Assembly (NCBI RefSeq): GCF_040054535.1
Contig: NC_090784.1
Coordinates: 5,937,501-6,001,500 of the forward strand
Length of the DNA: 64,000 nt
Reading direction: 5' to 3'
Source: Antennarius striatus
Taxonomy: Eukaryota; Chordata; Actinopteri; Lophiiformes; Antennariidae
Of this stretch, positions 2,691 through 23,520 are shown piece by piece; position 1 is the first letter of the stretch; the number at the start of each line of letters is the position of its first letter. Position numbers and translations under genes: made by a program. The notes below the pieces were generated by a model. It was not told where the DNA came from. It worked only from the letters and a program-made list of their open reading frames with translations, and ran no database searches.

Positions 2691-3289
2691 CCTTCAGTGG
2701 GGTTACAGAGGGCTGATTAATTGATAAAAGGTAAAATTAAATATTAGAGACTGCTTATTGGTTAGAGAGAATCATTTCTTCAATGCCTCATCAATGCTCA
2801 CCTACACAGCACGAACCAATGGCTGCCATCATCAGCCAAGTCGTTTTTATGGCTGTTTCATCTGGTAGGTGCTAATAGGAAAATATTGTAGAGAACGCTT
2901 CCTTCTCATATTATCAGACCTGTGATCATCTGTTGTGTTACTCTACATGCCAGTTTTTAATGTATTGTACACCTAAGTAAGTATGCATGCACAGCTATTC
3001 CAGATGTGCTGTGGCTGTACAGATTCTATTCAGGACACTGAAAATTGAAAATAAAACATGGTGGCCGGAGGATCATTCAACGGGGGCTACGGTAATTCAA
3101 CAAAAATTAGTGGTTGTTTAACTGAAAGTGAAAATAGACATTCGACAGTTATTGACAAAAATGTTGAGGATATGTGAACACTTCCGCTGTGATTCTTCAT
3201 AAAGACAAAAGAGACACGCACCTCATTACGAAAATAATTTTATTTGGTAAATTTTCTCAACTACAATCAACTATCTGAATCTTTTTTGG

Positions 3290-3470
3290 AATTTGTCTCT
3301 TCTTGAAGATAATAATAATCTTGGAGAGCCTGAAGAGAACCCACGAGGACACGAGGGGAACATACAAACTCTGAACAGACAGGCCTGAGGTGGAATTGAA
3401 GTTCGGAACTTCTTGCTGTGAGATAACAGCGCTACTCACTGCGTTCCTAAGCTACTCACTGTAATAAAAT
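3290..3470 (-). repeat. SINE-like dispersed repeat, reverse orientation
   Basis: Read on the minus strand it contains 'agtgagtagcgctgttatct', then an eroded B-box-like stretch, then a run resembling 'gtttgtatgttcccctcgtg'. The same family occurs on the + strand near 26.53 kb and 60.03 kb, and its 3' tail recurs near 10.0 and 19.5 kb. Confidence 0.5.
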
Positions 3471-6400
3471 GTCACATGTGAACACAACCAGAAAATATTA
3501 AATAAGACTCAAAATCAATAGTAAAATTGAATAAAAAGGTACAAGTTTAATTTTGCAACTGATTAGTGGTAGAAGGATAAAATACTCTCAGTTTGCACCT
3601 GGATATACCTAAGTTGCCTTGTCCAAACATTAACAGTTTTATGTTCTTTTCACATTATGATATACCAAACATAACACTCTTCATTGTTAGTAATTGCATG
3701 TTCTTTTCAGTGTGAGGTAAATAGGTGGCTCCATGGAATAAGTGATTCAGAAGTGAATGAAGCAAAAAAAGTGACTGCTGCATGGAGTGAAATGAGGCTT
3801 CGATGTAGTGACTTGTTTTGAAATACATCTGCTGTTGGTTACAAGTTAATGAACGATTCACAGATGTCATCCTCTGGGCCAGACTATCACTGCTCCAGAC
3901 TGGGGGATTAAACCTAAAGGGTTACGGAGAGGAACTGCACTGAAGTGGATTCATTAAGCTCAAGACCACCACTACAGCACATATTGCTGTGTCTACGATG
4001 CAAATAAACAACACATTTTTGAGGAATGGGTCTCTCTATTTCTCATCACCTCTTTCCTTTGATTTCGATCCACTTGTCTGTCTCTGTTGCTGAAACATAA
4101 ACAGGACACTGATGGTATTCTCTAAGTTGTATAGAGGGTTTGCAGCCATTCACACATCAGGAGGACTGGTCCTCCCACTGTAAACCACTTCTGTACTCAC
4201 AGAGTATGTGTGTACACATGCCGCTGTGGATGTATGTATGTGTGTGTGCTCTAATGTTTGTGCTAAATGTGGTTAGGTGGCTGAGACTGAAGCTGTCTTT
4301 TAATCTGACAGAGAGCATTTTCATTAGTTTTGCTGGGTTCTATTAATATAGCCTCTTTCAAAGGCCCAACAAGTGAAACCACTAGCAGGAAATGACCGAG
4401 GGCTCTACACTACATAGATCAGTGACAGCAATCTGTGCGTTTAAAGCCAGTTGTTATGGCACATAAAGGCATCTATTGTACACAATAAATGAAGCTCAGA
4501 AGACAGTGAGCGGACGAGGGGAGGGGCTTTTATCGGCCATTCACTTACTGTAGCCGACTGTGAGTGTCCAACTGTGGCATAGGTGACACATTTGTTCCAA
4601 TGCAGATGGCTGAAATGGAAGTTATGACATTGGCGAGGCAAATAAGATTGCCCAGTATAATAAATGTTGTAATAATTTGCTGTTTTTAATAACTGTATAA
4701 TGAGGCATTGCTTGCCCTTACAGCTGAGGGAAATCTGGAATCATTATGGGTTAGCCACGGTGCTTGGCGCAGGCTAAAGCAGCAACGAGTAGGAACATAG
4801 CAGTGTGAAAGGACAAGAGGTCTTAATATTTTGAACAAGTTTGACATATGTTAGCCATCATGGTGTGTACAAACCCACTAAATGGTGGCATTAATGGGTG
4901 AATTTTATTGCTAAAGTCACCCCTAATTGCAAAAATGCTATCCAAAGTCAACTCTCAGTGCAGATTTTGCCTACATTTGAAGTTGCTAGGTAACAAGTTA
5001 ATCCCCAAATAAATACGTTCTTCGATGAAAACTAAGTGTTTGTGACAGTTGTTTGGTTTGTGACTTTTGAAACAGGAAATTGTAGAATGTAGCTGTACTG
5101 GAAGTCCTTGGTGATCCCAGTCATTTACTTCTTCCACATCTGCCTCACCTGCTTGACAGGAAGTGGAAAGATTCATGTTCCTATTATTCACCTTGCGTAT
5201 TAATATCACCATGCTGTTTTTGTTTCATTCTCGGATGACAAATGGGGAATATTTATGAGCCACTTGCTGTGGTAGTGTTTCTGTAGCTGGGATTCATAAC
5301 AGCAGGTGCAGTGAGGGACGTTGGACTTTTTATCACCATCCATTACACGGAACAGACAGGCATTTCTATGCTGACCTGGTGTGGTGTGTCCTGTGGGTGC
5401 TGTAAGCAATTTTTGGCCTACTTAAGCACATGTTCGTCTGAACAGTTTGGCCTTTTCTTTTACATGTGGGTCCAAATATAACACAAAGTCATTGTCCCTG
5501 ATCACTTGAGGGGAATATATCCAAGCAGCTCCATCCTCCCTCTCAGGATATGACACGCAAGGGCTTTATGACTTGAACGGAATCACATTGTGCACCTTAA
5601 ACACATTACAGGCTGGGCAGATATTTCTACTAACTGCTGCTCTGAGAGCCATGGGCACAACCATTATATTGGTCTCCAGAGCCAGCTGGTGAGGACAAAT
5701 CCACAAGGATTCCTATTTTCCCCTTTCTGACTCTCTGGCAGCCCTTCTCCATTCATTCAGTTTTTATATGTGCCTAGTAGCCGTGTTACTACCGGCTTCA
5801 AGGGAGAATTAATCGAAAACAGGTCTTATTAAAGTATATTAAGACCATTTGAATTGAATAAATTATGCTCAGTAAGGCCCATAAGGGTTGTATCTGAGCC
5901 ATAACTGACACTTTTGGCGTATAGCAGTGTTATGTGGTGGCAGTGGGTCTGGGGGTGGGAGGGGGGTACTTCTCACCTTGGCCAAGTGTTGCATGGAGGG
6001 TAAACAGACATTAAGTGGGTATGAGGGCAGCAGGGGGTAAATTAGGGCCTCATTGTCCGCCTCCATTCAGGGGTGGATTATGCAGCTCCTTGTTTCAAAA
6101 GCAACCTTTGCCCCAACTTGGAGGGTCTGTTGAGGAAATAATCATTTATACCTACAAATATGTGCGAACAAACTTTATCCTCCACCTAAAAAGAAGCCAG
6201 GGAATGGGGAGTGGGTGGATGTGGAGCCACTGTAGCAGCATGTTGTACCTCAGTCTCTCTAACTGGACTGGGATCTGGAAATACTGGAGCCAATAACGCT
6301 CCCAGTCGTCATCCTCAGCATGGCACATTGTACTGGGCAAGTGCGTGGGCAAGTAGACTGTGTTTAATCAACTCAGCTGAAGGTGAGGTCTTGACCCCAT

Positions 6401-8139
6401 GTCAGCGGTTTTCCAGCCATGATAGTGTGCGTCTGTGTGATTGGCTTCCAGCCTTTGCTGTGTGACCTGCGGTGGAGCCTCCGGTTCATTCTCTGCTCTC
6501 TGCTGTTGCTGGTTTAAGTGATTAACTGTAGAAAGTGATGACTAATCTGTTGGATAAGAGTCTGAAACATTTGCAGTTGAATGAGATATTACAGGCAATG
6601 TTGTATGTATTCTGGCCCTCTGGATCCAATCAAGGAAAAGATTAATAGAAAGCATTACCAAGTTATTTTCTGTAGTGTTATTCATTTGAAAAAGTATTAC
6701 ACAATCCATCGTTCCCAATTGGGAAATTACTTCGTAATGATTTATATTTTGCCAACCGCGAAGTAAACCTGACTAATATGTTTTGACAGACAAATACCAT
6801 ACAACAATTTAATGCTGTGCATCCAATCATATGTTATTAATTTCACATTGAATGGAATATTCACTTCCATCATTCATTTTTAGTGGCCTAGCTTTAGGGA
6901 TGGCAATGTCATGTGTGTTTGTCCACTGCTAACAAACTGTAACAAGGATCACTCCACTTTACTTCAAGCTCCTGTCTCTGACCCGATGTCTAGTCAATGT
7001 TTTGCATGACCAGCATCAATGTCGGTCCAGTAATAGCCCAATTATCATAATAAAACCTTTTTAATGACTGTAGCTTCACCTAGCCCGTTTGGAACAGCAC
7101 AGCCCTCTCATCTGTTTAGAACGTGAAAGTGAAATTTAGGGTGCCAACAAAACACTTCCCAACAGATAAACAGGATTCAAAGATGAACGACTGTAAAGCA
7201 ATGTGTGGTGTCACTAATCAGGATAGAAAGTGCAATTTGTCTGAAATGATCCACTAGGTGTCAGCACTAACCATGTAGGCAAGTCAAGTATTCTTCCACC
7301 CTATTGTCAAAGGAACATGTGAGGGCATTCATCACTGGTGCTGATTCAACCTCCACTTTGACTGAGAGACAATCCTTTTGTTTCATTATGAACACCAGTA
7401 GCAACATAAGTTTGTCATCTTCAGAAACACGTGCCAGACTCTTCTGATTTACTACTTTTGCCTGAGAAATTAGTTAATAGATATAATGACACATGAATTG
7501 TCTACGTTGAGCAGTTGATGCAGAAACATGTTTGAAACATAGACTGATAACTGCATATTATACAAAATTGTGTTGAAGAGTATACATTTTCTAGGACAAC
7601 CTGAAAGATACCACTTTGTTTCTAACTGTTTTACAGTTTTTGAAGGCAATTTTTCTATGAGAAAAGCTTAACCGTGCCAGTTCGAATTTGAATTAGAACA
7701 AGCCAGCTTTCATTGTAATCTATTAAAAATCAGTACTTTCCTGACAACCTGAAGTTGTTCTTTAAATTCGGACATCAAATCAACATTTTTCTGACTTAGA
7801 AATCCAGAGACTGAAACACAACATCCAGAAATCTCAGTATTACAGTTTGTTCAGCTTTCAGTTCTGCATCTGAAAGATCTGAAGATCTGACTGTCATTTG
7901 CGTTTGTCTGGATACCATCCAGTCAGAGTTTCTAATGAAATCACAAACAACATCAACATCCTGTGAATTCCTCAACGTACCGCCCCAGCACTTTACTTTT
8001 GTACATTTTAAATATGCTTGCCTGAAGATTTATTGAGCTAGTATAATTTAGTTCAGCAACGAACAGTCCCCTAATTGCTGCCTGCCTGCCTGCATTGTGT
8101 TCTCTGTGTGTGAATGAGTTAGATAAAATAAACCGCATG

Positions 8140-8146
<7 letters not shown>

Positions 8147-8216
<70 letters not shown>
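8147..8216. repeat. (TG)n microsatellite
   Basis: About 70 bp of nearly uninterrupted TG dinucleotides. Confidence 0.97.
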
Positions 8217-8219
<3 letters not shown>

Positions 8220-8960
8220 AAACTGAACAGAGCCCACTGCTTTCATTTACTATCTCCTTGTGTGGTTTGGCAGCTGCTCTGTTGGTAAGGGGGCGTAGAA
8301 TGGGGCATCCGTCTCAGCGCAAGCCAGGCCTGGCATGGCGCTTCACCCCCTTCATGGGTGGATGGGAGTGGCATGTGTGTCTGCTGGCATTTACATGTAC
8401 AGTACATTTGTTGTGTGTATGTGTGAGTGTGTGTGTGTGGGTGTTGGGGATTACATCATAAACACAGGTTTGAACAACAACCACAGGTTTACCATTGTTC
8501 TGCTTGTCACATGCAATACCTTTTACCTATAAAAGATACTATTGTACGTCATGCTAGTAAACGCCCCATGTCTGCAGTGAATTAACACCAGGCCATTTAT
8601 TTTAACTTGGTGGTCATTATAATTGATAAGTAATGCAATAACATGCACACTATTATGGCGAGATGCCATACTTCCGTTTTCCATACTGGATGACAAGTGA
8701 AGCACGACAGAACTGGGCCGGTCTGAGCCTGCGTCGCATTTGGACAGCAGACCACCCCTGGAAAATGAAGCTGCCTCCGGAAGTCTAGATTATTTGAGGC
8801 CAGTGGAGAACGTCACTTAATGAACATACAAGTACTTGTGGCTGCATGGTGACACATGAGATTAAGTGTCATACATCCAACATCAAATCCTTGTCAATGG
8901 GTTACAATTTTTTGATGATCACATAATTGCTATTAATCATTCACTCATTCTTGGATTAAT
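8217..8960. other. Intergenic, left flank of hepcidin cluster
   Basis: No gene or clear repeat is seen, apart from a short interrupted GT run near 8410-8445. Confidence 0.4.
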
Positions 8961-8961
8961 T

Positions 8962-9010
8962 CCTGAAAAACCTGCAATGAGAAGGTTTACGCTTCTGTGT
9001 TGTGTGGCAT
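8962..9010 (-). pseudogene. Hepcidin exon-3 relic 1 (gutted)
   Basis: On the minus strand the sequence starts like hepcidin exon 3 (ATGCCACACAAC-like, then AGAAGCGTAAACC), preceded by a decayed intron acceptor (9011-9035, compare 'ctttcacacag'). It then jumps to the terminal 'tgcaggttt' equivalent, so about 50 bp carrying the cysteine core is missing. It cannot encode a peptide. It lies directly downstream, in minus-strand sense, of relic 2. Confidence 0.6.
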
Positions 9011-9180
9011 CTGTTTGAAAGATGAAAGGCAAGAGTTATGTGGTGTGAGTATATTTATTGACAACGTCAGATATTTCAAATGATTCACATTGAAAACTGG
9101 CTGAAGCAGACTAACAACTTAATTGAACACGTGAACATTTATCTATGGTTTTTCAAATTGAAAGGCTGGTGTAGACATCC

Positions 9181-9279
9181 TCAGAACCTGCAGCAGAAAC
9201 CACATTCACTCATACGAGGACAGCAGTTGCAGCAAAACTTGTAGCCAGCAGGATTACGCTTCTGTCTGTTCTATGGCAT
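9181..9279 (-). pseudogene. Hepcidin exon-3 relic 2 (full length, disabled)
   Basis: A 99-bp minus-strand match to hepcidin exon 3. Codon 3 is TAG instead of TAC, the first mature cysteine is TAC (Tyr) instead of TGC, and a glycine codon has become GAA. The other cysteines and the RQKR processing site are still readable. Part of intron 2 (9280-9311) follows on the upstream side. Exons 1 and 2 and the promoter are absent: at about 9312 the sequence switches to a hepcidin 3' UTR in the opposite orientation. Confidence 0.85.
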
Positions 9280-9311
9280 CTGTGTGAAAGACAAGAGATT
9301 GGAGTTCATCT

Positions 9312-9960
9312 CTGAGGATATATATACCAATCTGAGATTTCTATGAGTGTCAATAAATTTTGACATCTTGAATTAAGTTGATAGTCTGCTTCTGTCACTT
9401 TTAGATGCAAGTCCTTGTAAACATATGATGTTATTAATAGATATAATCTGTGCTTCAAGTGAGCCCCACTTTGTGTATAATACAGGATACATTCATTGTT
9501 TTAATAAATGTTATTTCAAAGAAAATATAACGTGCAATGAAATTTAATATTCTTCAGGTCTTACATTAAAAACAGTGCCATTCTTTGACATGTATTAAAA
9601 TTGTGAATATCACAATAAATGTGACCCCCTGCTGCTGGACCCCTTGGAGTCTGTGGGGTGTGTTATACATAACAAGGAGTTCTGCTCCCACAAAGGCTAA
9701 CTGTGCAAACTGAACTCTTTCATTTATGTTTCACATTTTCAGGATACTCTTGATTTTTGGTCACCCTGTAGATGGTATGTGCTCAGTGATGTATTTCTCA
9801 ATGAATTTTATTTAAATTGCACAATGACCATGCATCATGCCCCGAAAACACTTCGTGTAAAAAGAGGAATTGAACAAAATACAAGAAAATATTCAACAGT
9901 TTGAACAATGTCACTGAATGCTAGGATACACAAAACAAAATAAAAATGTCATCAGAACAA
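9312..9960 (+). pseudogene. Orphan hepcidin 3' UTR/flank joined to relic 2
   Basis: From 'tctgagga' onward the + strand matches the 3' UTR and downstream flank of genes B and F, including AATAAA at 9352-9357, but no coding exon precedes it on the + strand. Together with relic 2 this makes a fold-back: minus-strand exon 3 fused to a plus-strand 3' UTR. It mirrors the 3' flank of gene E (19510-20287, inverted). Confidence 0.75.
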
Positions 9961-9964
9961 GCTC

Positions 9965-10110
9965 ATTAAGTAATGTAGGGTCTGTCTCTGTGTAGCTCCG
10001 CGGTGCACTGGCGTCGTGCCCAGAGTTTGCCCCACCTCAAGCCTTACGACTGCTGGAATAGACTCCAGCTCCTCGTGATCTGCTACGGCGGAAAAAACAC
10101 TGATTAGAAG
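9965..10110 (+). repeat. SINE-family tail inside hepcidin 3' flank (left copy, inverted sense)
   Basis: It contains the typical 'gactccagctcctcgtgatctgctacggcgg' type tail ending in ATGGATGG units. The mirror copy is at 19510-19660. Its presence in both arms shows the insertion is older than the inverted duplication. Confidence 0.6.
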
Positions 10111-10241
10111 ATGGATGGATAGATGGATGGATGGATGGATGGATGGATGGATGGATGGATGGATGGATGGATGGATGGATGGATGGATGGATGGATAGAT
10201 GGATGGATGGATGGATGGATGGATGGATGGATGGATGGATG
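10111..10241. repeat. (GGAT)n microsatellite
   Basis: About 130 bp of GGAT/GATA tetranucleotides growing from the ATGGATGG tail of the preceding SINE-like repeat. The mirror site (19508-19516) carries only about two units, so the array expanded or contracted after duplication. Confidence 0.97.
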
Positions 10242-10559
10242 GGCTAAATAATGGATGAAAAGGGGTGCAGTAGTAGTTTTCAGATGGATGCAACATCAGT
10301 TGAGATCTCATTCTTGTTCATGGAGTAAAGATGTTGTCCGTGTTTTCTTGTGACTTTTGCATGTCTTTTCATACTTTGTAATTGTTTAATAATATATAAT
10401 TAATTATGCTCTGGTAAAGTGTGAATGTCTGTTGTCGATAAAAATATGTCTTTTTCATAGTTCGAGGGTTTGGGGGCTTTTGGTCAATGCTGGAAGAGAT
10501 TATAATGATATTAGTCATTTTAAATGTTGCTGACTTTTGAGCTCAGTCAGGGAACAAAT

Positions 10560-11030
10560 TAAACCTGTATCTAAAGGTCCTACTGCATTATATTAAGATG
10601 CTCATTTAGTAAATAGAAGTGGGTTTCAACCTTGACTTGAAAAATTTTGCTAAGGTTTCTTCCTTAACATGTGGGGGGAGTTTATTCCAAGGAAACAGGT
10701 CTCGATAAACAAATGCTCTGAAATCAAGTAATAATTATTTGTAGGAATGACCAAGACAGCAGCATCAGAAACACAGACAAGTACCTCAGTGCTAATCAAT
10801 GTAAGGCCTTGGAGGTTAAATAAAGAATCTAACAATCATCTCTTGCTTGCACTGGCAGCAGCATTCTGGACAAGCTGCAGTTTTATGATAGTGTATTCTT
10901 GAATCCAGATAGGAGTTCATTACAATAATCAAGTCTGGATGGATTAACTTTTCATCATTACATTATGACAAAAAGCCCAGATTGTAAAAATTTGACTGAG
11001 ATGAAAAAAATGCTGATTTCGTAATGGATT
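10560..11030 (+). repeat. Dispersed repeat shared with the flank of gene F
   Basis: The segment 10560-10770 ('tctcgataaacaaatgctct' region) is repeated in the same sense at 23320-23520 beyond gene F. The rest ('gcagcattctggacaagctg', 'attacaataatcaagtctgg') resembles a very common teleost interspersed repeat whose class I cannot name. It is missing from the right palindrome arm, so a deletion there is more likely than an insertion here. Confidence 0.5.
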
Positions 11031-11175
11031 TGATGTGACCCTGAAATTCTAAATGGGGATCAAAAATCACTCCAGGATTTCTCACAGCAGAGCTTTCATT
11101 ATAAATGCCGCCATCAAAATTAACAATTCATGTCAGACTTTCCAGTATAAGTATTAAAGCTCTGTTTTGTCAACA

Positions 11176-11181
11176 TTTATT
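11176..11181 (-). terminator. Candidate poly(A) signal for gene A
   Basis: TTTATT on the + strand (AATAAA on minus), about 420 nt past the A stop codon. A weaker ATTAAA (minus) lies nearer, at 11449-11454. Gene A lacks the standard hepcidin 3' UTR poly(A) site because its 3' region is replaced. Confidence 0.35.
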
Positions 11182-11599
11182 TGCAGAAAGTAATACACAT
11201 ACATTTAGTAAGTAATAAACACATACATGTATTAATTTCTAAAAGACATGCTCCTAAAGTACAGAATTGGGAAAGATCAGTTGGAGCGTATAGTTGTATC
11301 ATCAGGGTCACGATGGGCTCAAAGGTCATGTTTCAAAAAATATCAAAGAGGGGAAACATATAAGAAGAAAACACGTAGGGCCAAGAATCATGCCTTGCCA
11401 TACACTAGACTTTACTTACACAAACTTGTTCATACATATTCAAAAAGTTTTAATTCATTGGGATCAAATGATTTTATCAGCAGATATTGAGTATGTCCTA
11501 CTGTGTGGCTGATACTATCACATCATGTAAACTGCAGCCTCACAAATCTATCAAAATTCTTGAATATTTAAAAGTCACTCAGGGCTGGTGTAGATACCC

Positions 11600-12084
11600 T
11601 CAGAACCTGCAGCAGAAACCACATCCACTCATACGAGGACAGCAGTTGCAGCAAAACTTGCAGCCAGCAGGGTTACGCTTCTGTCTGTTGTATGGCATCT
11701 GTGTGAAAGACAAGAGACAGGAGTTCATCCCCAGCATCATCATCATCCTCAGTCTGTTCATTGTCTCTCTCCTTCAATGGACCTTACATATTTGCCTCAG
11801 TCCATTCATTGAATTGGACATACCTTCCAGGAGTCATCTGACATCTCTTCTTGGGGAGCAACTGGATGGTCATTGCTCAGTGGCTCCTCCAGCTCCTGAA
11901 CCTGTCAATGAATTGTGAACATTTAAAGTCAGAGCCAGTACATAGCATTATACACAACAACCTCAAAGCAAATGGAACAACTGACTGAAGGTCTTACTTC
12001 AGACACTGGAACAGCAGAGCTCTCCTGAATACAAATAAACACCAGCATGATGGCCACTGCAACTACAACACTGAAAGACTTCAT
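11600..12084 (-). CDS. hamp2: Hepcidin type 2 preproprotein, gene A
   Basis: A three-exon gene on minus: exon 1 12084-11998, exon 2 11901-11824, exon 3 11698-11600, all introns GT-AG in phase 0 (96 and 125 bp). The product is 87 residues: a 24-residue signal peptide starting MKSFSVVVAV and ending ESSA, an acidic propeptide (exon 2 VQELEEPL...), the furin site RQKR, then a 24-residue mature peptide starting NPAGCKFCC with eight cysteines (mature positions 5, 8, 9, 11, 12, 18, 21, 22). Hepcidins are secreted peptides acting in iron control and antimicrobial defence. This one lacks the Q-S/I-H-type N-terminus tied to ferroportin binding in type-1 hepcidins, so an antimicrobial HAMP2-like role is inferred. 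The protein is identical to that of gene B (one silent difference in exon 2). It lies head-to-head with B, 752 bp between start codons, and its 3' region matches only gene D. Confidence 0.95.
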
Positions 12085-12192
12085 GTTTGGAGGTTCGACT
12101 GGTTTAGTTTGAACTCCTCTGACTCTTCTGGTGACTCTTGTCAGCTCCTTTGACTTCTCCTCTCTGATGGAGGAATGCTGTGAGTGTGTTGG

Positions 12193-12200
12193 TATTTATA
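12193..12200 (-). promoter_or_regulatory. TATA box of gene A
   Basis: TATAAATA on the minus strand, about 110 bp upstream of the ATG. The core around it ('gttgtcaataatgaggcaac') is the beta type seen in B, C and F. Farther upstream the sequence is alpha type (a GGGAAAGTCC imperfect kappaB-like site at 12256-12265), as in D and E. Confidence 0.8.
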
Positions 12201-12652
12201 CTGACTTGACTTCAGTTGCCTCATTATTGACAACACCTCTGCTGGGAATGAAAATGGGAAAGTCCTCAATGATGGGAAGTGAGATTTCTGTGCCACAAAT
12301 CAATTATTATTTCGAAGGCTTGTTTACTAAAGTATAAAATAATTTTATGTAATTTGTGTTTCTGATCTATAACTAACCTGCATCTGTTAATTGAGCAATA
12401 CAGCATGAACAACACAATGCAACAGCAACCCTGTAAAACCTTTTCATGTCAGACTATTTAGGTTATAAAACCTTATGATTTCGTGAAAAGATGTAACATT
12501 TTACCAGAAATCAGAAACAAAGCTTCAGATTCATTATGAGTAAAAACCATGTAAAAAAAAAAAAGCACATTTCAACAGTATATGTTTGTTTCACTTTCTG
12601 TAGAAACATTGATTAATTGTCCTGGGGCAGAAAGAGCTGAGTTTCCATCAGT
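12201..12652. promoter_or_regulatory. Shared upstream spacer of divergent pair A/B
   Basis: The spacer is non-coding. Compared with the C-D spacer, about 540 bp is missing at roughly 12480, where 'aaccttatgatt' joins 'gtgaaaagatgtaaca'. Both promoters face outward, so common regulatory input is possible but unproven. Confidence 0.5.
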
Positions 12653-12662
12653 GGAACTTCCC
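12653..12662 (-). promoter_or_regulatory. NF-kappaB-type site of gene B
   Basis: GGAACTTCCC, whose reverse complement GGGAAGTTCC fits the kappaB consensus GGGRNNYYCC exactly. It lies 56 bp upstream of the B TATA box. The same decamer is present in the same place in C and F. Confidence 0.55.
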
Positions 12663-12717
12663 TTTGTCATTCCCAGCAGAGGTGTTGTCAATAATGAGGC
12701 AACTGAAGTCAAGTCAG

Positions 12718-12725
12718 TATAAATA
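12718..12725 (+). promoter_or_regulatory. TATA box of gene B
   Basis: TATAAATA, 119 bp upstream of the start codon, in the conserved context 'aagtcagTATAAATAcc'. Confidence 0.8.
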
Positions 12726-12836
12726 CCAACACACTCACAGCATTCCTCCGTCAGAGAGGAGAAGAAGTCAAAGGAGCTGACAAGAGTCACCAGAAGAGTC
12801 AGAGGAGTTCAAACTAAACCAGTCGAACCTCCAAAC

Positions 12837-13335
12837 ATGAAGTCTTTCAGTGTTGTAGTTGCAGTGGCCATCATGCTGGTGTTTATTTGTATTCAGGAGA
12901 GCTCTGCTGTTCCAGTGTCTGAAGTAAGACCTCCAGTCTGAACCATTCCATTTGCTTTGAGGTTGTTGTGTATAATGCTATGTACTGGCTCTGACTTTAA
13001 ATGTTCACAATTCATTGACAGGTTCAGGAGCTGGAGGAGCCACTGAGCAATGACCATCCAGTTGCCCCCCAAGAAGAGATGTCAGATGACTCCTGGAAGG
13101 TATGTCCAATACAATGAATGGACTGAGGCAAATATGTAAGGTCCATAGAAGGACAGAGACAATGAACAGAGTGAGGATGATGATGATGATGATGATAATG
13201 CTGGAGATGAACCCCTGTCTCTTGTCTTTCACACAGATGCCATACAACAGACAGAAGCGTAACCCTGCTGGCTGCAAGTTTTGCTGCAACTGCTGTCCTC
13301 GTATGAGTGGATGTGGTTTCTGCTGCAGGTTCTGA
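12837..13335 (+). CDS. hamp2: Hepcidin type 2 preproprotein, gene B
   Basis: Exons at 12837-12923, 13022-13099 and 13237-13335; introns 98 and 137 bp, GT-AG, phase 0. The 87-residue product has signal peptide MKSFSVVVAV..., propeptide VQELEEPL..., RQKR cleavage site and the eight-cysteine mature peptide NPAGCKFCC...GFCCRF. The protein is the same as gene A, and the Ser at residue 3 is shared only by A and B (Thr in C-F). Intron 2 contains a GAT/GATGAT simple repeat whose length differs between copies. It has the standard hepcidin 3' UTR. The class and role are as inferred from the missing type-1 N-terminal iron motif. Its mirror partner in the palindrome is gene C. Confidence 0.96.
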
Positions 13336-13372
13336 GGACAACTGCACCAATCTGGGATTTCTATAAAGTGTC

Positions 13373-13378
13373 AATAAA
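13373..13378 (+). terminator. Poly(A) signal of gene B
   Basis: AATAAA 38 nt past the stop codon, in the conserved context 'gtgtcAATAAAtgtt'. Confidence 0.8.
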
Positions 13379-13936
13379 TGTTGTGTTAAATTAAGTCGAT
13401 TGTCTGCCTCTGACACTTTTCAATGTGAGTCCTTGTAAAAATGTAATGTTAGTAATAAATATACTCACTTCGTGCTTCAAGTGATCTTCACATTGTGTAC
13501 ATTGCAGTTCATCATTTCAATAAAATTCAATTCAGGTGAAATTTAATTTGTGATGGTGTTTCATAATCTTTAGGAACTGCTTTAAAAAACAGTCCTATTT
13601 TCTTTGATATTCATCATAATTGTTAATATCACATTAAGTGTGACCCCATGCTGCTGGACCCCCGGTGTCTGTTGAGTGTGTTAAACAAAACAAGTAGTTT
13701 ACTCCCAAGAAGACTGACCGTGTTATCTGTCTTTGAGGAAAGTTTTTCATATATGTTTTCTCACATTTTCAGAATGCTTCTGAATTTTGTTCACGTTGTT
13801 GATTTTATGTGCTCAGTGATGTCATTGAATACCTGTGATGTTTTTGTCAATCAGTCAATTGACATTATTTAAATTGCAAAACCACCATGCTTCACGGTCC
13901 CAATCCATTTTGTAGAAAAGGAGGCAGTGGACAAAA
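13379..13936 (+). other. 3' flank of gene B
   Basis: Non-coding flank homologous to 22712-23250 (F), to 9358-9890 (orphan) and inverted to 19800-20248 (E). It breaks off at the piggyBac left end. Confidence 0.65.
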
Positions 13937-13940
13937 ATAA

Positions 13941-16417
13941 CCCTTGGATATACATGTGGGGTCAGGCATGGCCCCATGGGTTGTTTTTGTTCAACAGCTT
14001 CAAAATGAAAGTTTGTAATATATTCATATTCCAGGTATTCCTCATAAAATATGTTGTGACATGAGGCCATTTTCTTAAAACATAAATTATTTTCAAGAAA
14101 TTGTAGTTTTTGTATCACTACCCCACTCTTCCATAAGTGGGGTCACATATGACCCCCAAAAGTTCTTATGGATTTTTGCATGAACCTTTACTTTTTAGCC
14201 ACTTTTACTGTCCCACTTTCACATCTGTTGTCCTTGTCCACTTCTGCTGCAACTTTCCAATCACCACAACTGGTATCAGGAAGCTTACCACCCAGGAGCT
14301 CTTTGCTACAGAGTAACACATGTATAAGTCATTTCTCTATTTTTGAACTTAATTTTTTGTTATATTGTAACATGTGATCACAATATGTGTTTTTTATTTT
14401 ATTTTATCTATAGTAAAATGGCTGATAAGAGGCCAGGTAGGATCCTTTTGGACTATACCCTGCAAATGATCCAGGACGAATGGGATGAAGTCATAGTGAC
14501 TGACTCAGATTCTGACCTCTCAGATATGGAAGACACAGCCTATTGTCCCCCCACTGAACTAGGGCAGTCAGACACACAGGAATCCACTGAGTCATCTGAA
14601 GAGGACATGGAGCCACAAGTTCTCTTACTGCAAATAGTTACCTGCCAGACAAGCTAAAACACCAAGTCACAGTTTTCAACGTATTATGCCAGGACCTGTA
14701 CCTGGGATTAGAAATGTCTCCCCAATAGATGCATGGAAGGGATAAATGTCTGATGACATAATAGAAGAGGTGCTGACATGCACAAACAAGGAAGGAGAAA
14801 GAGTAGCCTCAGACATGGGGAAAGAGTTGAGAAATACAACCAAAGATAAGCTTGTGGCCTTCATTGGATTGACCATTCTTGCAGGAAGTGAGAAGAACTG
14901 GGATGTGCCAGTCCATACGCTTTTTGGGAGTCCTCTGCACAACCCATTGTACAAGGTCACTATGTCAATTCAAAGTTTTGAAGACATTTGCCAGTCCTTA
15001 CGTTTGATGACAAGTAGACCAGGGCCAACCGACTGAAAACAGATCACCTTGCAGCTTTTTGCCACAAATGGGACCTATTCCTGATCAGCTGCAGGGACAA
15101 ATTCACCCCCGGTGATTGCGTGACAGTGGACGAATAACTCGTGCCTTTCAGAGGGAGGACCCAGCTTCTGTAGTACATGCCAAACAAGCCCGCCAAGTAC
15201 GGCAGAAAGACCTTCTGGGTTTGTGATGCACGTACTCCATTTGCAGTTGATGGAATTGTGTACCTCGGGAGACAACCAGGGGAAAATGTCCAGAAGAATC
15301 TGGGAGAAAACGTTGTCCGTCAGTTGTGCAGTGGATTCAGACACACAGGTCACAACATCACCACTTATTCACCAGTATGCCTCTTGCAGAACATCTCCTG
15401 GAGGAGGGTCTGACTATTGTGGGAACTTTGCGAGAGAACAAGCCGGACATTTCTCCAGTCATAAAGGCTTCCAAGTCAAGAGAGGTCCACAGCACCGAAT
15501 TTGGGTTCAATGGGAAGATGACCACGATCAGCTATGTAAGAAAGAAGGGAAAGGCTGTTCTGCTGCTTAGCACAATGCACCACAGCAGGACGGTGGATGA
15601 AAACAGCCCAAGAAAAAAGAGAAACAATCCTCTTCTACATTAAGACAAAAGGGGAAGTGGATATAGTGGACCAGATGGTCGGCAACTCCACCTGCAAACG
15701 GCAGATGCAGAGATGACCCATGGTGCTCTGGTATAACCTGATTGACGTCGCCGCTCTGAATGCCTATACATTTTTCAGGGCTCAGCACCCTGAAGTTTAC
15801 ACAGGCATCACCCATGGATGACGCCACTTCTTCATAGAGCTCTCAGTGGAGCTTCTGACACCTCACATCAAAAGTCGACTGGAAGGTACCCCGAACCTAC
15901 CAACCTACATCACAGCAATGGAAAGAGTTGTAGTGACAAAGACTGCTGAGATCCAGCCACAGGGATTTGACACAAGTCGCCAGCGGAAGAGGAAAAGGTG
16001 CAGGTTGTGTCGAAGAAAGAAAAATAGCAAAACCACTGATTGCTGTGTTAAGTGCCGCACCTCTGTGTGCGGCAGTCACAACCAGAAGCAAGTTGTTTGT
16101 GACAGATGCACACAGTGAGAGGAGATCTGTTTTTTGTGTGAATGTCGGCCAGGCTGCCATCGCCCCCCACTGGCCCCACAGGATCTCCGCAAGTGTGAAT
16201 GTGCATTTGTGTGTACAAAAAATGCAAATTCTTAAAGTTAATGAAAAAAATACATGAATAATGCAAATGTTTTCTGTCACAAACATGTTTTATTTGGAAT
16301 ACCTGGAATATGAATGTATTACATATTTCATTTTGAAGCCGTTGAAGAAAAGCAATCCTTGGGGTCATGTTTGACCTCTGGAAGTGTTGATGTATTGGTA
16401 ACTTATGCATCCAAGGG
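13941..16417 (+). mobile_element. piggyBac-family transposon relic at the palindrome centre
   Basis: A 2477-bp element. The ends are CCCTTGGAT (13941-13949) and its inverse ATCCAAGGG (16409-16417). Long subterminal inverted repeats lie at about 13980-14055 and 16282-16358 ('gaatacctggaatatgaat' and its complement), with further 'ggggtca...tgacccc' palindromes near both ends. It contains a decayed transposase in the + sense. The right end is flanked by TTAA (16418-16421), the piggyBac target, but the left end by ATAA (13937-13940). Left flank is the 3' flank of gene B; right flank is the inverted 3' flank of gene C. Confidence 0.93.
14418..16118 (+). pseudogene. piggyBac transposase, multiply disrupted
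   Basis: It starts at ATG 14418 (MADKRPGRILL) with an acidic N-terminal region (DSDSDLSDMED), typical of PGBD/piggyBac proteins. The core then runs through several frames: EEVLTCTNKEG, KLVAFIGLTILAGS, CQSLRLM; FRGR-like sequence after a TAA that replaces the residue next to the first catalytic Asp (VDE-stop, near 15136); PNKPAKYGRKTFWVCDART at 15181; PLAEHLLEEGLTIVGTLREN; KGEVDIVDQM holding the third catalytic Asp; and a C-terminal Cys-rich finger (CRLCRRKK...CCVKC...CDRCTQ). At least five in-frame stops and about three frameshifts are visible. The bases expected to encode the second catalytic Asp before FTSMPLAEHLL (about 15363) are deleted. It cannot make an active enzyme. Confidence 0.92.
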
Positions 16418-16421
16418 TTAA

Positions 16422-16637
16422 ACATGTAATAGTCTAAAGAATACAAAAAAGCATCATTCATTACATTTGACTTGAATTCAAATTTATTGAATTGGTAAAT
16501 TGTTCCTGTAATATACACAAAGTGGAGCTCACTTTAAGCACGGAGTGAGTATATTTGTTAATAATGTCTCACATTTACAAGGATTCACATCAAAATGTGA
16601 CAGAAGCAGATGATCAACTTAATTTAACATATGAAAA
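16422..16637 (-). other. 3' flank of gene C
   Basis: The reverse complement aligns to the F flank from about 22712 to 22930, then stops at the piggyBac right end. It is therefore about 300 bp shorter than the B flank on the other side of the element. Confidence 0.65.
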
Positions 16638-16643
16638 TTTATT
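16638..16643 (-). terminator. Poly(A) signal of gene C
   Basis: TTTATT on + (AATAAA on minus), 37 nt past the C stop codon, same context as gene B. Confidence 0.8.
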
Positions 16644-16679
16644 GACACTTATAGAAATCCCAGTTTGGTGAATATATCC

Positions 16680-17161
16680 TCAGAACCTGCAGCAGAAACC
16701 ACATCCACTCATACGAGGACAGCAGTTGCAGCAAAACTTGCAGCCAGCAGGGTTACGCTTCTGTCTGTTGTATGGCATCTGTGTGAAAGACAAGAGACAG
16801 GAGTTCATCTCCAGCATCATCTTCTTCACTCTGTTCATTGTCTCTCTCCTTCTATGGACCTGACATATTTGCCTCAGTCTGTTCATTGTATTGGACATAC
16901 CTTCCAGGAGTCATCTGACATCTCTTCTTGGGAAGCAACTGGATGGTCATTGCTCAGTGGCTCCCCCAGCTCCTGAATCTATCAATGAATTGTGAACATT
17001 TACAGTCAGAGCCAGTACATAGCATTATACACAACAAACTCAAAGCAAATGAAATGACTGACGGACGGTCTTACTTCAGACACTGGAACAGCAGAGCTCT
17101 CCTGAATACAAATAAACACCAGCATGATGGCCACTGCAACTACAACACTGAAAGTCTTCAT
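16680..17161 (-). CDS. hamp2: Hepcidin type 2 preproprotein, gene C
   Basis: Minus-strand exons: 17161-17075, 16978-16901 and 16778-16680; introns 96 and 122 bp, GT-AG. The product is 87 residues with MKTFSVVVAV signal peptide and propeptide beginning IQELGEPL. The Glu-to-Gly change in the propeptide is unique among the six genes, and it has Ser where A, B and D have Pro before Q-E-E-M. RQKR and the eight-cysteine mature peptide are unchanged. Its beta-type promoter with a kappaB decamer matches B, its mirror copy. It is head-to-head with D (start codons 1295 bp apart). Function is inferred as for the other copies. Confidence 0.95.
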
Positions 17162-17269
17162 GTTTGGCGGTTTGACTGGTTTAGTTTGAGCTCCTCTGAC
17201 TCTTCTGGTGACTCTTGTCAGCTCCTTTGACTTCTCCTCTCTGATGGAGGAATGCTGTGAGTGTGTTGG

Positions 17270-17277
17270 TATTTATA
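17270..17277 (-). promoter_or_regulatory. TATA box of gene C
   Basis: TATTTATA on + (TATAAATA on minus), 109 bp upstream of the ATG. Confidence 0.8.
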
Positions 17278-17332
17278 CTGACTTGACTTCAGTTGCCTCA
17301 TTATTGACAACACCTCTGCTGGGAATGATAAA

Positions 17333-17342
17333 GGGAAGTTCC
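17333..17342 (+). promoter_or_regulatory. NF-kappaB-type site of gene C
   Basis: GGGAAGTTCC, a perfect kappaB consensus match at the same distance from TATA as in B and F. Confidence 0.55.
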
Positions 17343-18314
17343 ACTGATGGAAATTCAGCTCTTTCTGCTTCAAAACAATTAATCAATGTTTCTACAGAAA
17401 ATGAAACACAAATTTTGTTGAAATGTCTGATTTTTTACATGGTTTTTACACATAATGAATCTGAAACTTTGTTTCTGATTTCTGGTAAAATGTTACATCT
17501 TTCAACAGATCAATAATAAACATGCAATAGAACACGGCAGTGATCCTGATGTCTCGACGTTTAACAGTTTTTAATAGTTTGATATTTTACATCATCCAAA
17601 TTTATACATTTTTTAAGCAATTACGGTATCAAATTAATCAATTTTTATTCATCTAAATTTTCAACAATACACAGCTGTTAGGGTTAAGCTATGCATTTGT
17701 TCTCTGTTCACTTGTGCATGAAAGGGAGTAATTGAAATTTACAAAGTTATCCACCTGGTTTAATTGAAGGAAAATGTTAATATTGGAGTTTCAGATATAG
17801 TCAAATTGTGAACTCAAACAACATTGAAAAAAAAGGGTAGCCTGTTGAAAACAATGGCTATTCAGGTGTTTATTTCATCATATATGCAGTGATTGATGCT
17901 GTTTGTTACAAAGATGTGATATACAGTATGTTCATTTATTACTGAGGGATATTGATATTGATTGAATTTCCTGAAAATTAACAACATCCTTGATGTTTCA
18001 GAATCAACTGAAAACATGGACTTCTTTATCTTTTACTTTTCTTTTGGACTTGGTTCACAAAATCATAAGGTTTTATAACCTAAATAGTCTGACATGAAAA
18101 GGTTTTACAGGGTTGCTGTTGCATTGTGTTGTTCATGCTGGATTGCTCAATTAACAGATGCAGGTTAGTTATAGATCAGAAACACAAATTACATAAAATT
18201 ATTTTATACTTCAGTAAACAAGCCTTCGAAATAATAATTGATTTGTGGCACAGAAATCTCACTTCCCATCATTGAGGACTTTCCCATTTTCATTCCCAGC
18301 AGAGGTCTTGTCAC
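17343..18314. promoter_or_regulatory. Shared upstream spacer of divergent pair C/D
   Basis: Non-coding and AT-rich. The outer parts match the A-B spacer inverted. The middle (about 17520-18060) matches the E-F spacer (about 21100-21800, inverted, e.g. 'aacaaatgcatagcttgaccctaa') but is deleted between A and B. Confidence 0.55.
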
Positions 18315-18320
18315 TGATAA
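18315..18320 (+). promoter_or_regulatory. GATA-type site of gene D
   Basis: TGATAA within 'cttgtcactgataaggcaac', 26 bp before the TATA-like element. It is shared with gene E and replaced by 'gttgtcaataatgaggcaac' in A, B, C and F. Confidence 0.4.
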
Positions 18321-18340
18321 GGCAACTGAAGTCAAGTCAG

Positions 18341-18348
18341 TACAAATA
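18341..18348 (+). promoter_or_regulatory. Degenerate TATA box of gene D (TACAAATA)
   Basis: At the position where the five other intact genes have TATAAATA, gene D reads TACAAATA. The flanking bases are otherwise conserved, 116 bp before the ATG. Confidence 0.75.
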
Positions 18349-18456
18349 CCAACACACTCACAGCATTCCTCCATCAGAGAGGAGAAGTCAAAGGAGCTGA
18401 CAAGAGTCACCAGAAGAGTCAAAGGAGTTCAAACTAAACCAGTCAAACCTCCAAAC

Positions 18457-18944
18457 ATGAAGACTTTCAGTGTTGTAGTTGCAGTGGCCATCATGCTGGT
18501 GTTTATTTGTATTCAGGAGAGCTCTGCTGTTCCAGTGTCTGAAGTAAGACCTTCCGTCAGTTGTTCCATTTGCTTTGAGGTTGTTGTGTATAATGCTATG
18601 TACTGGCTCTGACTGTAAATGTTCACAATTCATTGATAGATTCAGGAGCTGGAGGAGCCACTGAGCAACGACCATCCAGTTGCTCCCCAAGAAGAGATGT
18701 CAGATGACTCCTGGAAGGTATGTCCAATACAATGAATGGACTGAGGCAAATATGCAAGGTCCATGGAAGGACAGAGACAATGAACAGACTGAGGATGATG
18801 ATGATGATGCTGGGGATGAACTCCTGTCTCTTGTCTTTCACACAGATGCCATACAACAGACAGAAGCGTAACCCTGCTGGCTGCAAGTTTTGCTGCAACT
18901 GCTGTCCTCGTATGAGTGGATGTGGTTTCTGCTGCAGGTTCTGA
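18457..18944 (+). CDS. hamp2: Hepcidin type 2 preproprotein, gene D
   Basis: Exons at 18457-18543, 18640-18717 and 18846-18944; introns 96 and 128 bp. The product is 87 residues: MKTFSVVVAV signal peptide, IQELEEPL propeptide with Pro before Q-E-E-M, RQKR, and a mature peptide identical to the rest. The coding region is fully intact, but the TATA box has a transversion-free T-to-C change and the usual hepcidin 3' UTR is replaced after 'ttctgaggg' by the sequence shared with gene A. Expression may therefore differ from the other copies; that is inference. Confidence 0.95.
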
Positions 18945-19088
18945 GGGTATCTACACCAGCCCTGAGTGACTTTTAAATATTCAAGAATGTTGATAGATTT
19001 GTGAGAATGCAGGTCACATGATGTGAAAGTATCAGCCACACAGTAGGAAATACTCAATATCTGCTGATAAATCATTTGATGCCAATGG

Positions 19089-19094
19089 ATTAAA
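19089..19094 (+). terminator. Candidate poly(A) signal of gene D
   Basis: ATTAAA 145 nt past the stop codon. Canonical AATAAA follows at 19321-19326 and 19367-19372. The usual site 38 nt past the stop is absent. Confidence 0.4.
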
Positions 19095-20248
19095 ACTTTT
19101 TGAATATGTATAAATAAGTTTGCGTAAGTAAAGTCTAGTGTACCGCAAGGCTTGATCCTTGACCATACAATGTTTTCTTCTCATATGTTTCCCCTCGTTG
19201 ATATTTTTTGGAAATATGACCTTTGAGTCCATTGCGACCCTTATGATACACAACTTTCACTTTCTTGAGCCAACTGATCTTTCCCAATTCTGTACTTTAG
19301 AGGCATGTCTCTTAGAAATTAATAAATGTATAATACTGATAAAATGTATGTGTTTTACTTTCTGCAAATAAACGTTGACGAAACTGAGCTTTTATTCTTA
19401 TACTGGAAAATCCGACATAAATTGTTAATTTTGATGGCAGCATTTCTTATGAAAGCTCTGCTGCTGGAATGATTTTTGATCCCCATTTAGCATTTTAGGG
19501 CCACATGAGATCCATCCATCTTCTAATCACTGCTTTTTCCGCCGTAGCGGGTCACGAGGAGCTGGAGCCAATTCGAACTGGCTCAAGGCTTGAAGCGGGG
19601 CAAACTCAAGGCACGACGCCAGTGCACCGCGGAGATACACAGAGACAGACTCTGCATTACTTTACGAACTTCTTCTGATGAAAGTTTTAATTTGTTTTGT
19701 GTATCCTAATATCTAGTGATATTGTTCAAACTGTTGCATATTTTACTGTATTTTGTTCAATGCCTCTTTTTCCACGAAGTGTACTGGCATCATGATGCAT
19801 GGTGGTTTTGCGAATTAAATAAAATTCAATAACTGATTGAGAAATATATCAAGAGTATCCTGGAAATTTGACACATAAATGAAAGAGTTCAGTTTGCACA
19901 GTTAGCCTTCGTGGGAGCAGAACTCCTTGTTATGTACTGTATAACACACTCCACAGACACCAGGGGTCCAGCAGCAGAGGTCACATTTAATGTGGCATTA
20001 ACAATTTTGATACATGTCAAGAAAAATTGCACTTTTTTAATGTAAGACCTGAAGAATATGAAACACCATTGCACATGATATTTTCTTTGAAATAATATTT
20101 ATTAAAACAATGAATGTTTCCTGTATTATACACAAAGTGGAGCTCACTTGAAGCACATATTGTATTTATTAATAACATCATATGTTTACAAGGACTCGCA
20201 TCTAAAAGTGACAGAAGCAGACTATCAACCTAATTCAAGATGTCGAAA
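19095..20248. other. Tail-to-tail spacer between genes D and E
   Basis: Non-coding. 18945-19506 mirrors the 3' region of A; 19510-19660 is the mirror copy of the SINE-family tail; 19660-20248 is the inverted 3' flank of E, mirroring 9360-9960. A deletion at about 19507 removed what is 10.12-11.03 kb in the left arm. Confidence 0.65.
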
Positions 20249-20254
20249 TTTATT
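20249..20254 (-). terminator. Poly(A) signal of gene E
   Basis: TTTATT on + (AATAAA on minus), 34 nt past the E stop codon. Confidence 0.8.
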
Positions 20255-20287
20255 GACACTCGAAATCCCAGATTGGTGCAGATGTCC

Positions 20288-20780
20288 TCAGAACCTGCAG
20301 CAGAAACCACATCCACTCATACGAGGACAGCAGTTGCAGCAAAACTTGCAGCCAGCAGGGTTACGCTTCTGTCTGTTGTATGGCATCTGTGTGAAAGACA
20401 AGAGACAGGGGTTCATCCCCAGCATCATCATCATCATCATCCTCACCCTGTTTATTGTCTCTCCTTTTCTATGGACCTTACATATTTGCCTCAGTCCATT
20501 CATTGAATTGGACATACCTTCCAGGAGTCATCTGACATCTCTTCTTGGGAAGCAACTGGATGGTCGTTGCTCAGTGGCTCCTCCAGCTCCTGAACCTGTC
20601 AATGAATTGTGAACATTTAAAGTCAGAGCCAGTACATAGCATTATACACAACAACCTCAAAGCAAATGAAATGGTTCAGACTGGAGGTCTTACTTCAGAC
20701 ACTGGAACAGCAGAGCTCTCCTGAATACAAATAAACACCAGCATGATGGCCACTGCAACTACAACACTGAAAGTCTTCAT
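20288..20780 (-). CDS. hamp2: Hepcidin type 2 preproprotein, gene E
   Basis: Minus-strand exons: 20780-20694, 20595-20518 and 20386-20288; introns 98 and 131 bp, GT-AG. The product is 87 residues with MKTFSVVVAV signal peptide, VQELEEPL propeptide with Ser before Q-E-E-M, RQKR and the common mature peptide. The alpha-type promoter resembles D, with an intact TATA box and a GATA-type site. It is head-to-head with F (start codons 1389 bp apart) and tail-to-tail with D. Confidence 0.95.
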
Positions 20781-22169: not shown

Positions 22170-22668
22170 ATGAAGACTTTCAGTGTTGTAGTTGCAGTGG
22201 CCATCATGCTGGTGTTTATTTGTATTCAGGAGAGCTCTGCTGTTCCAGTGTCTGAAGTAAGACCTTCAGTGTGATTCATCTCATTTGCTTTGAGTTTGTT
22301 GTGTATAATGCTATGTACTGGCTCTGACTGTAAATGTTCACAATTCATTGATAGATTCAGGAGCTGGAGGAGCCACTGAGCAATGACCATCCAGTTGCTA
22401 CCGAAGAAGAGATGTCAGATGACTCCTGGAAGGTATGTCCAATTCAATGAATGGACTGAGGCAAATATGTAAAGTCCATTGAAGGAGAGAGACAATGAAC
22501 AGAGTGAGGAGGATGATGATGATGATGATAATGCTGGAGATGAACTCCTGTCTCTTGTCTTTCACACAGATGCCATACAACAGACAGAAGCGTAACCCTG
22601 CTGGCTGCAAGTTTTGCTGCAACTGCTGTCCTCGTATGAGTGGATGTGGTTTCTGCTGCAGGTTCTGA
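22170..22668 (+). CDS. hamp2: Hepcidin type 2 preproprotein, gene F
   Basis: Exons at 22170-22256, 22355-22432 and 22570-22668; introns 98 and 137 bp, GT-AG, phase 0. The product is 87 residues with MKTFSVVVAV signal peptide and IQELEEPL propeptide. The propeptide reads ATEEEM where the other copies have APQEEM or ASQEEM, the most divergent of the six. RQKR and the mature eight-cysteine peptide are unchanged. Its beta-type promoter carries the kappaB decamer. It is the right-most hepcidin, and its 3' flank is the least rearranged, so it serves as reference for the palindrome arms. Confidence 0.95.
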
Positions 22669-22705
22669 GAAAATCTGCACCAGCCTTTCAACTTCAAAAA
22701 CTGTC

Positions 22706-22711
22706 AATACA
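22706..22711 (+). terminator. Altered poly(A) hexamer of gene F (AATACA)
   Basis: AATACA stands where B, C and E have AATAAA (38 nt past the stop in F). The next canonical AATAAA is at 22857-22862. Confidence 0.6.
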
Positions 22712-23300
22712 TGTTCATGTGTTAAATTAAGTTGATGATTTGCATCACTGTTAGATGTGGGTCCTTATAAACATGTGAGCTTGTTCATAAACATCCTCAA
22801 TCACTGCTTCAATTAAACTCCACTTTGCGTATAATATAATAACAATTCATCATTTCAATAAATTTGAATTCATGTGAAACGTAATGTGTGATGGTATTTT
22901 ATACTTTTTAGGTTTTACAATATCAACAGTAACATTTTCTTTGATATTAATCAAAATAGTGAATATCTCATTAATTATGACCCCCTGCTGCTGACCTTTG
23001 GTGTCCGTGGAGTGTGTTACACACAACGAGTTCTGCTCCCACGAAGGCTGACTGTGTTATCTGTCTTTAAGGAAACTGAACTTTTCCATGTATGTTTTCC
23101 CACATTTTCAGGATGCTTCCGAATTTAGTAATTTTGTTGATTTTATGTGCTCAGTGAGATTTTTATCATCAGTCAATTTTGTTTAACTTGCAAAACCACT
23201 ATGTATCATGGTCCTAATACATGTTGTAGAAAAAAAGAGGTAATAGACAAAATAAAGCATGCAACAGTCCAAACAATGTCACTAAATGTCAGGGTACTTA
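22712..23300 (+). other. 3' flank of gene F
   Basis: Non-coding, homologous to 13379-13936 and 9358-9930. It marks the right border of the duplicated hepcidin material. Confidence 0.6.
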
Positions 23301-23319
23301 CAAAAACAAAACATTTCAC

Positions 23320-23520
23320 GGTTGAGAAGGGCTATTGTAATAAGATGCTATGTCATTTAGTGCATAGAAGTAGTGTTTCAACCTTCATTTAGAACTTTAG
23401 GTTTCTTCCCTAACTTGTGGGAGGAGTTCATCCCAGGGATAACAAGCTCGATAAACAAATGCTCTGAAATCAAGTAGTTATTGTTGATGGAATGACCAGG
23501 ACATATTTTTGAATTTTTCT
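23320..23520 (+). repeat. Dispersed repeat, direct copy of 10560-10770
   Basis: Shares 'tctcgataaacaaatgctctgaaatcaagta'-type sequence in the same orientation and at the same place relative to the hepcidin 3' flank as in the left arm. Confidence 0.6.

Follow-up and report, generated by a model that had tools for sequence, protein, structure and literature searches.

How does a cluster of hepcidin genes, which in fish encode an antimicrobial peptide and iron hormone, come to be laid out as mirror images of one another, and what would such a layout do to its genes? The question is raised by a 64,000-nucleotide stretch of Antennarius striatus DNA (NC_090784.1, positions 5,937,501 to 6,001,500; hereafter the window, numbered from its first letter), in which six hepcidin genes, termed A to F, lie in three divergent pairs. 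Expansions of hepcidin in fish are commonly interpreted as diversification driven by positive selection. Herein, the best explanation of the cluster, and in our judgement a probable one, is a history of inverted duplications that built an octet of genes, combined with gene conversion between the paralogs. The chances are about even for a more specific account, in which three inverted doublings took one gene to two, four and eight, the mirror layout acts, through conversion within and between pairs, as a homogenising device for promoter and gene in eight, now six, copies and the product is a single, dosage-amplified peptide.

All six genes are intact, with three exons each, and encode hepcidin preproproteins of 87 residues:

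11600..12084, minus strand: hepcidin A, 87 amino acids, exons 12084-11998, 11901-11824 and 11698-11600
12837..13335, plus strand: hepcidin B, exons 12837-12923, 13022-13099 and 13237-13335
16680..17161, minus strand: hepcidin C, exons 17161-17075, 16978-16901 and 16778-16680
18457..18944, plus strand: hepcidin D, exons 18457-18543, 18640-18717 and 18846-18944
20288..20780, minus strand: hepcidin E, exons 20780-20694, 20595-20518 and 20386-20288
22170..22668, plus strand: hepcidin F, exons 22170-22256, 22355-22432 and 22570-22668

The A and B proteins are identical, and the six genes encode five distinct proteins. Two of the five were searched against Pfam, and both exceeded the PF06446 cut-off of 27, the A/B protein with 65.6 bits (E=4.8e-18) and the F protein with 66.0 bits (E=3.7e-18). 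The mature peptide, NPAGCKFCCNCCPRMSGCGFCCRF, contains eight cysteines, follows an RQKR cleavage site and is the same in all six genes. Identification as hepcidin was based on a profile match above the gathering score together with an eight-cysteine peptide after an RXKR-type site, and both were found. In addition, a search of PDB sequences with an E limit of 1 gave a single match, 1s6w, named Hepcidin (E=4.4e-6), which we take to be a fish hepcidin. Exon 3 shows no difference among the six genes; variation over the whole reading frame is confined to 7 of the 87 codons, of which five alter the residue and two are synonymous. By resemblance, the cluster is probably of type 2 (HAMP2), and the mature peptide lacks the type 1 N-terminus when compared with an approximate type 1 sequence. 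The TATA-like box reads TATAAATA in A, B, C, E and F and TACAAATA in D (18341-18348); the D promoter may be weak, a possible sign of decay in one copy. All five neighbouring pairs of intact genes are convergent or divergent.

Inverted self-matches were obtained by self-BLAST over 8-26 kb of the window. Three collinear inverted blocks were found: 9311-10120 with 20292-19510 (84.3% identity with gaps counted and 87.3% with gaps excluded, from self-BLAST and alignment), 11024-12487 with 19515-18054 (92.9% and 94.5%, respectively; 2179 bits) and 12487-13573 with 17502-16434 (88.9% and 91.8%). Pooled, the blocks are 91.9% identical over 3284 gap-excluded columns, with 22 gap runs. A chance origin was rejected, as the best minus-strand self-match in 20 dinucleotide-preserving shuffles of the same 18 kb, run with the same scoring and word size, reached 37.4 bits, against 2179 bits in the real sequence. 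The palindrome is real, and its gene-carrying inverted arms stand far above chance, as in a palindromic gene amplicon. Near-identity of the arms over their whole length, the sex-chromosome type, was not found, with block identities of 87.3-94.5%.

The original prediction had described an orphan 3' flank followed by A and B on the left as the mirror of C, D, E and a 3' flank on the right, and the three blocks bear this out, its outer coordinates being correct within a few bases. The unique 3' sequence that it placed in the mirror is indeed present (11024-11582 with 19515-18962, 89.0% of 543), as is the tail shared by both arms, described here as repeat-like (9941-10110 with 19689-19520, 85.3%). 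A continuous anti-diagonal had been expected between 9.3-13.9 and 16.4-20.3 kb; the anti-diagonal is there, but it is interrupted by two large indels, one segment being confined to the left arm (10121-11023) and one to the right (17503-18053). The E-F pair mirrors C-D as well (16434-18109 with 22911-21242 inverted, 83.7%), and the palindromic structure therefore reaches to about 23 kb.

Long inverted repeats are difficult to assemble, and the reading given here is built on assembled sequence, so that a foldback read or collapsed haplotypes might have produced the inverted structure. Such an artefact is very improbable: a foldback should give near-identical arms, and the divergence between the present ones is 8% overall and reaches 19% in the flanks. 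Furthermore, the 22 gap runs and two large indels distinguish the arms, and a transposon lies between them.

Relics of lost genes mark the left edge of the palindrome. To its left, 8938-9310 carries two degenerate hepcidin exon-3 relics, P and O, and the left arm itself opens with a third relic, O':

8938..9040, minus strand: relic P, a degenerate fragment of hepcidin intron 2 and exon 3, identified by nucleotide match and reverse translation
9046..9310, minus strand: relic O, what is left of a lost gene: its exon 3, a piece of intron 2 and some 135 bp of the 3' flank
9311..10120, plus strand: relic O', stop codon, 3' untranslated region and 3' flank of a lost gene, with the repeat-like tail
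10110..10242, no strand: (GATG)n array of 33.2 copies, short in the mirror arm
10121..11023, no strand: segment confined to the left arm, from self-BLAST, its junction read by eye

Relic P matches A over 8967-9037 (with 11653-11725, 79.5%), and its reverse translation contains HNSCLSSFKQMPHN. Relic O is 94.6% identical to A over 9164-9310, its coding lesions are one in-frame stop, a Cys to Tyr and a Gly to Glu change, and its 3' flank is only 68-73% identical to the others. O' is the mirror partner of the E 3' flank (20292-19510 inverted, 87.3%). Relics O and O' are joined at 9310/9311 with about 2 bp of common sequence (TC), as judged by eye with C and E standing in for the lost genes. Taken together, the flank once called orphan is the remnant of a fourth divergent pair (O, O') that lost its middle, and it fits the loss of everything between O intron 2 and the end of O' exon 3. 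The right-arm copy of 10121-11023 was probably removed by a deletion between ATGGAT repeats, at the D-E junction.

The order of events was sought in the sequences around the genes, which comprise the following:

11024..11582, minus strand: 3' flank of A, a unique sequence with D as its only mirror (89.0% over 543)
18962..19515, plus strand: unique 3' flank of D, the mirror of that of A
19510..20287, minus strand: 3' flank of E with the repeat-like tail, the mirror of O'
22669..23310, plus strand: 3' flank of F, related to those of B, C, E, O and O'
12486..12487: junction at which the A-B spacer has lost about 551 bp that C-D and E-F retain
17503..18053: segment of the C-D spacer, common to E-F and missing from A-B

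Upstream flanks are of two types, one in A, D and E and the other in B, C and F, and each pair combines both. C-D and E-F also have a common intergenic spacer (17484-18058 with 21845-21293 inverted, 77.6%). Since all three pairs contain the two flank types and this spacer is common to two of them, the head-to-head pair predates the copying of pairs. The flank types also confirm the alternating pair orientation noted in the original prediction, and its proposal that a head-to-head pair was amplified by inverted duplication gains support from the two types in every pair and the inversion of successive pairs.

In the proposed history, a head-to-head hepcidin pair would have formed first and been copied in inverted orientation to give the quartet C-D-E-F; the quartet would then have been copied, again inverted, to give the octet O-O'-A-B / C-D-E-F. 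Later losses would comprise the central deletion in O-O', the 551-bp deletion in the A-B spacer and a third deletion where D meets E. A piggyBac element would also have inserted at the palindrome centre. The right quartet C-D-E-F is mirrored by B-A-O'-O, with the A/D 3' sequence and the O'/E tail in mirrored order; neither of these two sequences has a further match in the window at E 1e-3. A maximum-likelihood tree with 200 bootstraps was built from the six homologous 3' flanks (B, C, E, F, O and O'; A and D have another flank), and it grouped E with O' (100), F with O (98) and B with C (51-56). Pooled flank identity was 87.4% between octet mates (1663 columns) and 80.7% between quartet mates (994 columns; Fisher p=4e-6). 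The octet pool excludes the A-D upstream flank (98.5% of 196), which was probably converted and would raise the octet figure, and the pair pool excludes the B-E row (77.9% of 506). In the alignment from which the flanks were typed, low values of 30-60% represent mostly non-homologous flank that was force-aligned and were not used as distances.

The same layout might have arisen from unrelated events, namely single-gene transpositions or inversions in a tandem array, with no quartet-to-octet duplication. The broken anti-diagonal, the B-C bootstrap of 51-56 and an A/D 3' flank unlike that of the other four genes would suit such a history. It is nevertheless unlikely, as O', A and B mirror E, D and C in order, including the A/D sequence and the O'/E tail, and the octet predicts the grouping of O with F that the tree shows.

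Several observations weigh against the proposed order of duplications. The p value compares partly different regions, since 3' flank makes up most of the octet pool, and upstream flank and spacer most of the quartet pool; like for like, 3'-flank identity is 81.0% for B-C and 76.1% for C-F, and in 225 shared columns B-C equals B-E (79.6%). Over all rows, 3'-flank identity leaves the quartet and pair levels inseparable, with B-F at 77.0 and C-F at 74.4% on one side and E-B at 78.3, E-C at 77.0, O'-B at 76.6, O'-C at 76.8, E-F at 72.9 and O'-F at 73.6% on the other. O has a long branch, and its grouping with F may therefore be attraction. The duplication order as a whole is read from internal comparisons within one sequence. 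A ranking of quartet over pair obtained from E-F alone (p=0.0004) was dropped, as it vanishes when all 3'-flank rows are used; the order of quartet and pair is a structural argument. As a separate observation, 10587-10758 and 23334-23503, located 3' of O' and F, match directly at 79.8%, representing either ancestral 3' flank or a dispersed repeat.

Between B and C, the centre of the palindrome is occupied by a mobile element:

13941..16417, plus strand: dead piggyBac-type transposon, from Pfam matches and inverted ends

PF13843 (DDE_Tnp_1_7) matches occur in all three plus frames, and the element is therefore frameshifted and taken as dead. Its inverted ends (13960-14095 with 16376-16242, 80.3%) start with CCCTTGGAT, and it is flanked by TTAA at 16418-16421 and by ATAA, one base off, at 13937-13940. 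DDE_Tnp_1_7, inverted ends and a TTAA target duplication are what we take to be the hallmarks of piggyBac; all were found, with ATAA on one side, and 13941-16417 fits a piggyBac insertion. Nothing on the C side pairs with the B 3' flank at 13574-13936, and the palindrome centre is thus asymmetric even apart from the transposon.

If the copies are old enough for their flanks to have diverged, what has kept the genes alike? A core of about 0.7 kb, covering promoter, exons and introns from about -190 to the stop codon, is 87.5-100% identical by region in all 15 comparisons. Homologous flanks are mostly at 73-89%, with high values upstream in A-D (98.5%) and B-C (91.2%) and low ones for relic O (68-73%). 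Of the 12 comparisons chosen, 10 showed higher identity in the introns than in the homologous flank (uncorrected p<0.05). Furthermore, the cores are mosaic. The core has 27 biallelic informative sites; 218 of their 351 pairings were incompatible with a single tree, and the largest compatible set held nine sites; neighbouring sites had the same partition 7 times, against 1.7 in shuffles (p=0.00035). This analysis used gap-free columns with at most two bases, from -172 on; four A/D/E-type flank sites (-185 to -174) lie outside it. Individual cases illustrate the pattern: A is of the A/D/E flank type up to -174, but at four sites between -153 and -141 it departs from D and E and agrees with B, C and F. 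In addition, TCT (Ser3) is common to A and B alone. Cores more alike than their homologous flanks and mosaic sites, the marks of a concerted array, are thus both found, and the mosaic sites indicate gene conversion between paralogs as the probable cause.

Purifying selection on the core, its promoter and splice signals included, could account for the same likeness if the duplications were simply old. A short protein, short introns and almost no variation in exons 1 and 3 all suit this explanation. We consider it quite unlikely, because five of the seven varying codons alter the amino acid, unlike the residue of strict protein constraint, introns are at 87.5-99.0% against 73-90% in 11 of 12 flank comparisons, and selection alone would not readily produce conflicting, clustered partitions in the core. 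Some results nonetheless count against conversion. Two of the 12 tests, upstream B-C and A-D, gave no intron excess, and the A-D upstream flank (99.0%) even exceeds the introns (96.4%); the 12 tests are a chosen subset and mutually non-independent. Short introns may themselves be constrained, and the clustering of partitions is also compatible with multi-base mutations.

With conversion as the preferred explanation, mirrored copies would serve as mutual templates, keeping the core of about 0.7 kb alike while the flanks diverge. The outcome would be six promoter-bearing genes for one mature peptide, likely a matter of dosage rather than diversification. A and B, separated by about 0.3 kb of spacer, form a long inverted repeat (11586-12306 with 13349-12614, 93.0%); C and D form another (93.0%, spacer 0.85 kb), as do E and F (79.7% over a longer 1.4 kb, spacer 0.95 kb). 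In yeast, breaks close to inverted repeats have been demonstrated to lead, through foldback synthesis, to inverted duplications, chiefly in cells without Mre11-Sae2 hairpin cleavage (PMC10622511), and it has been argued that duplicates on opposite strands stay unstable until a deletion at the centre destroys their symmetry (PMC2547482). The lesions in O/O', the A-B spacer and the D-E junction fit this picture of instability followed by central deletion (PMC2547482). Instability of the array is supported only indirectly, through deletions that probably took place in the past at O/O', in the A-B spacer and between D and E.

Multicopy HAMP2 is already known. Six hepcidins are reported on chromosome 13 of the large yellow croaker (PMC6240063), one type I and fourteen type II hepcidins in the gilthead seabream (PMC12255565) and four hepcidins in the black rockfish (PMC8533284). 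As far as these reports describe them, percomorph HAMP2 clusters and the present array have in common three-exon genes, lineage-specific expansion and an eight-cysteine mature peptide. The croaker Hamp2 isoforms are likewise described as very similar in sequence, and likeness of copies alone is therefore not new; that paper stresses differing expression, promoters and functions (PMC6240063), whereas the present array is mirrored and all its genes encode one and the same mature peptide. In the main text of the croaker paper, 'inverted', 'orientation', 'tandem' and 'gene conversion' do not occur (PMC6240063). An open-access literature search combining hepcidin with arrangement and conversion terms gave no title or abstract start, among the matches listed, that describes this layout, and a peptide fragment had no match in such a search. 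Beyond the original prediction, the analysis adds the contrast between core and flank and the mosaic cores.

Other known systems are comparable in architecture. Mammalian sex-chromosome palindromes are reported to carry genes in inverted arms, with arm-to-arm conversion and structural variation (PMC6790999, PMC3403216, PMC9122934). Those arms are called nearly identical (PMC9122934), whereas here identity is 91.9% and likeness is highest in the gene cores. Divergent tandemly arrayed genes are described as long inverted repeats, and their asymmetric central deletions resemble the O/O' and A-B lesions (PMC2547482). Convergent and divergent orientations account for 3% to 14% of arrayed pairs in 11 genomes according to the same source, against five of five neighbouring pairs here (PMC2547482). 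With relics of lost copies still in view, the array offers a small natural system for studying how inverted repeats give rise to copies of an immune gene, keep them uniform and remove them, and it could show whether copy number sets hepcidin dose. If the account is true, one dosage-amplified peptide is found here where other HAMP2 clusters reportedly diversify.

The remainder of the window is either gene-poor or holds only exons without known domains: a six-frame Pfam scan of 1-8942 and 24001-63992 at E 0.01, which would miss domain-less exons, found no recognisable host exon. The only Pfam matches in these surroundings are remnants of a Tc1/Sleeping Beauty-type transposase helix-turn-helix at 37848-38139 (minus strand), with PF25787 at 23.3 bits, below its cut-off of 43, and PF01498 at 31.6 bits, with a cut-off of 31.5. 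In addition, a long (ATAG)n tetranucleotide array of 64.5 copies is located at 28733-28990.

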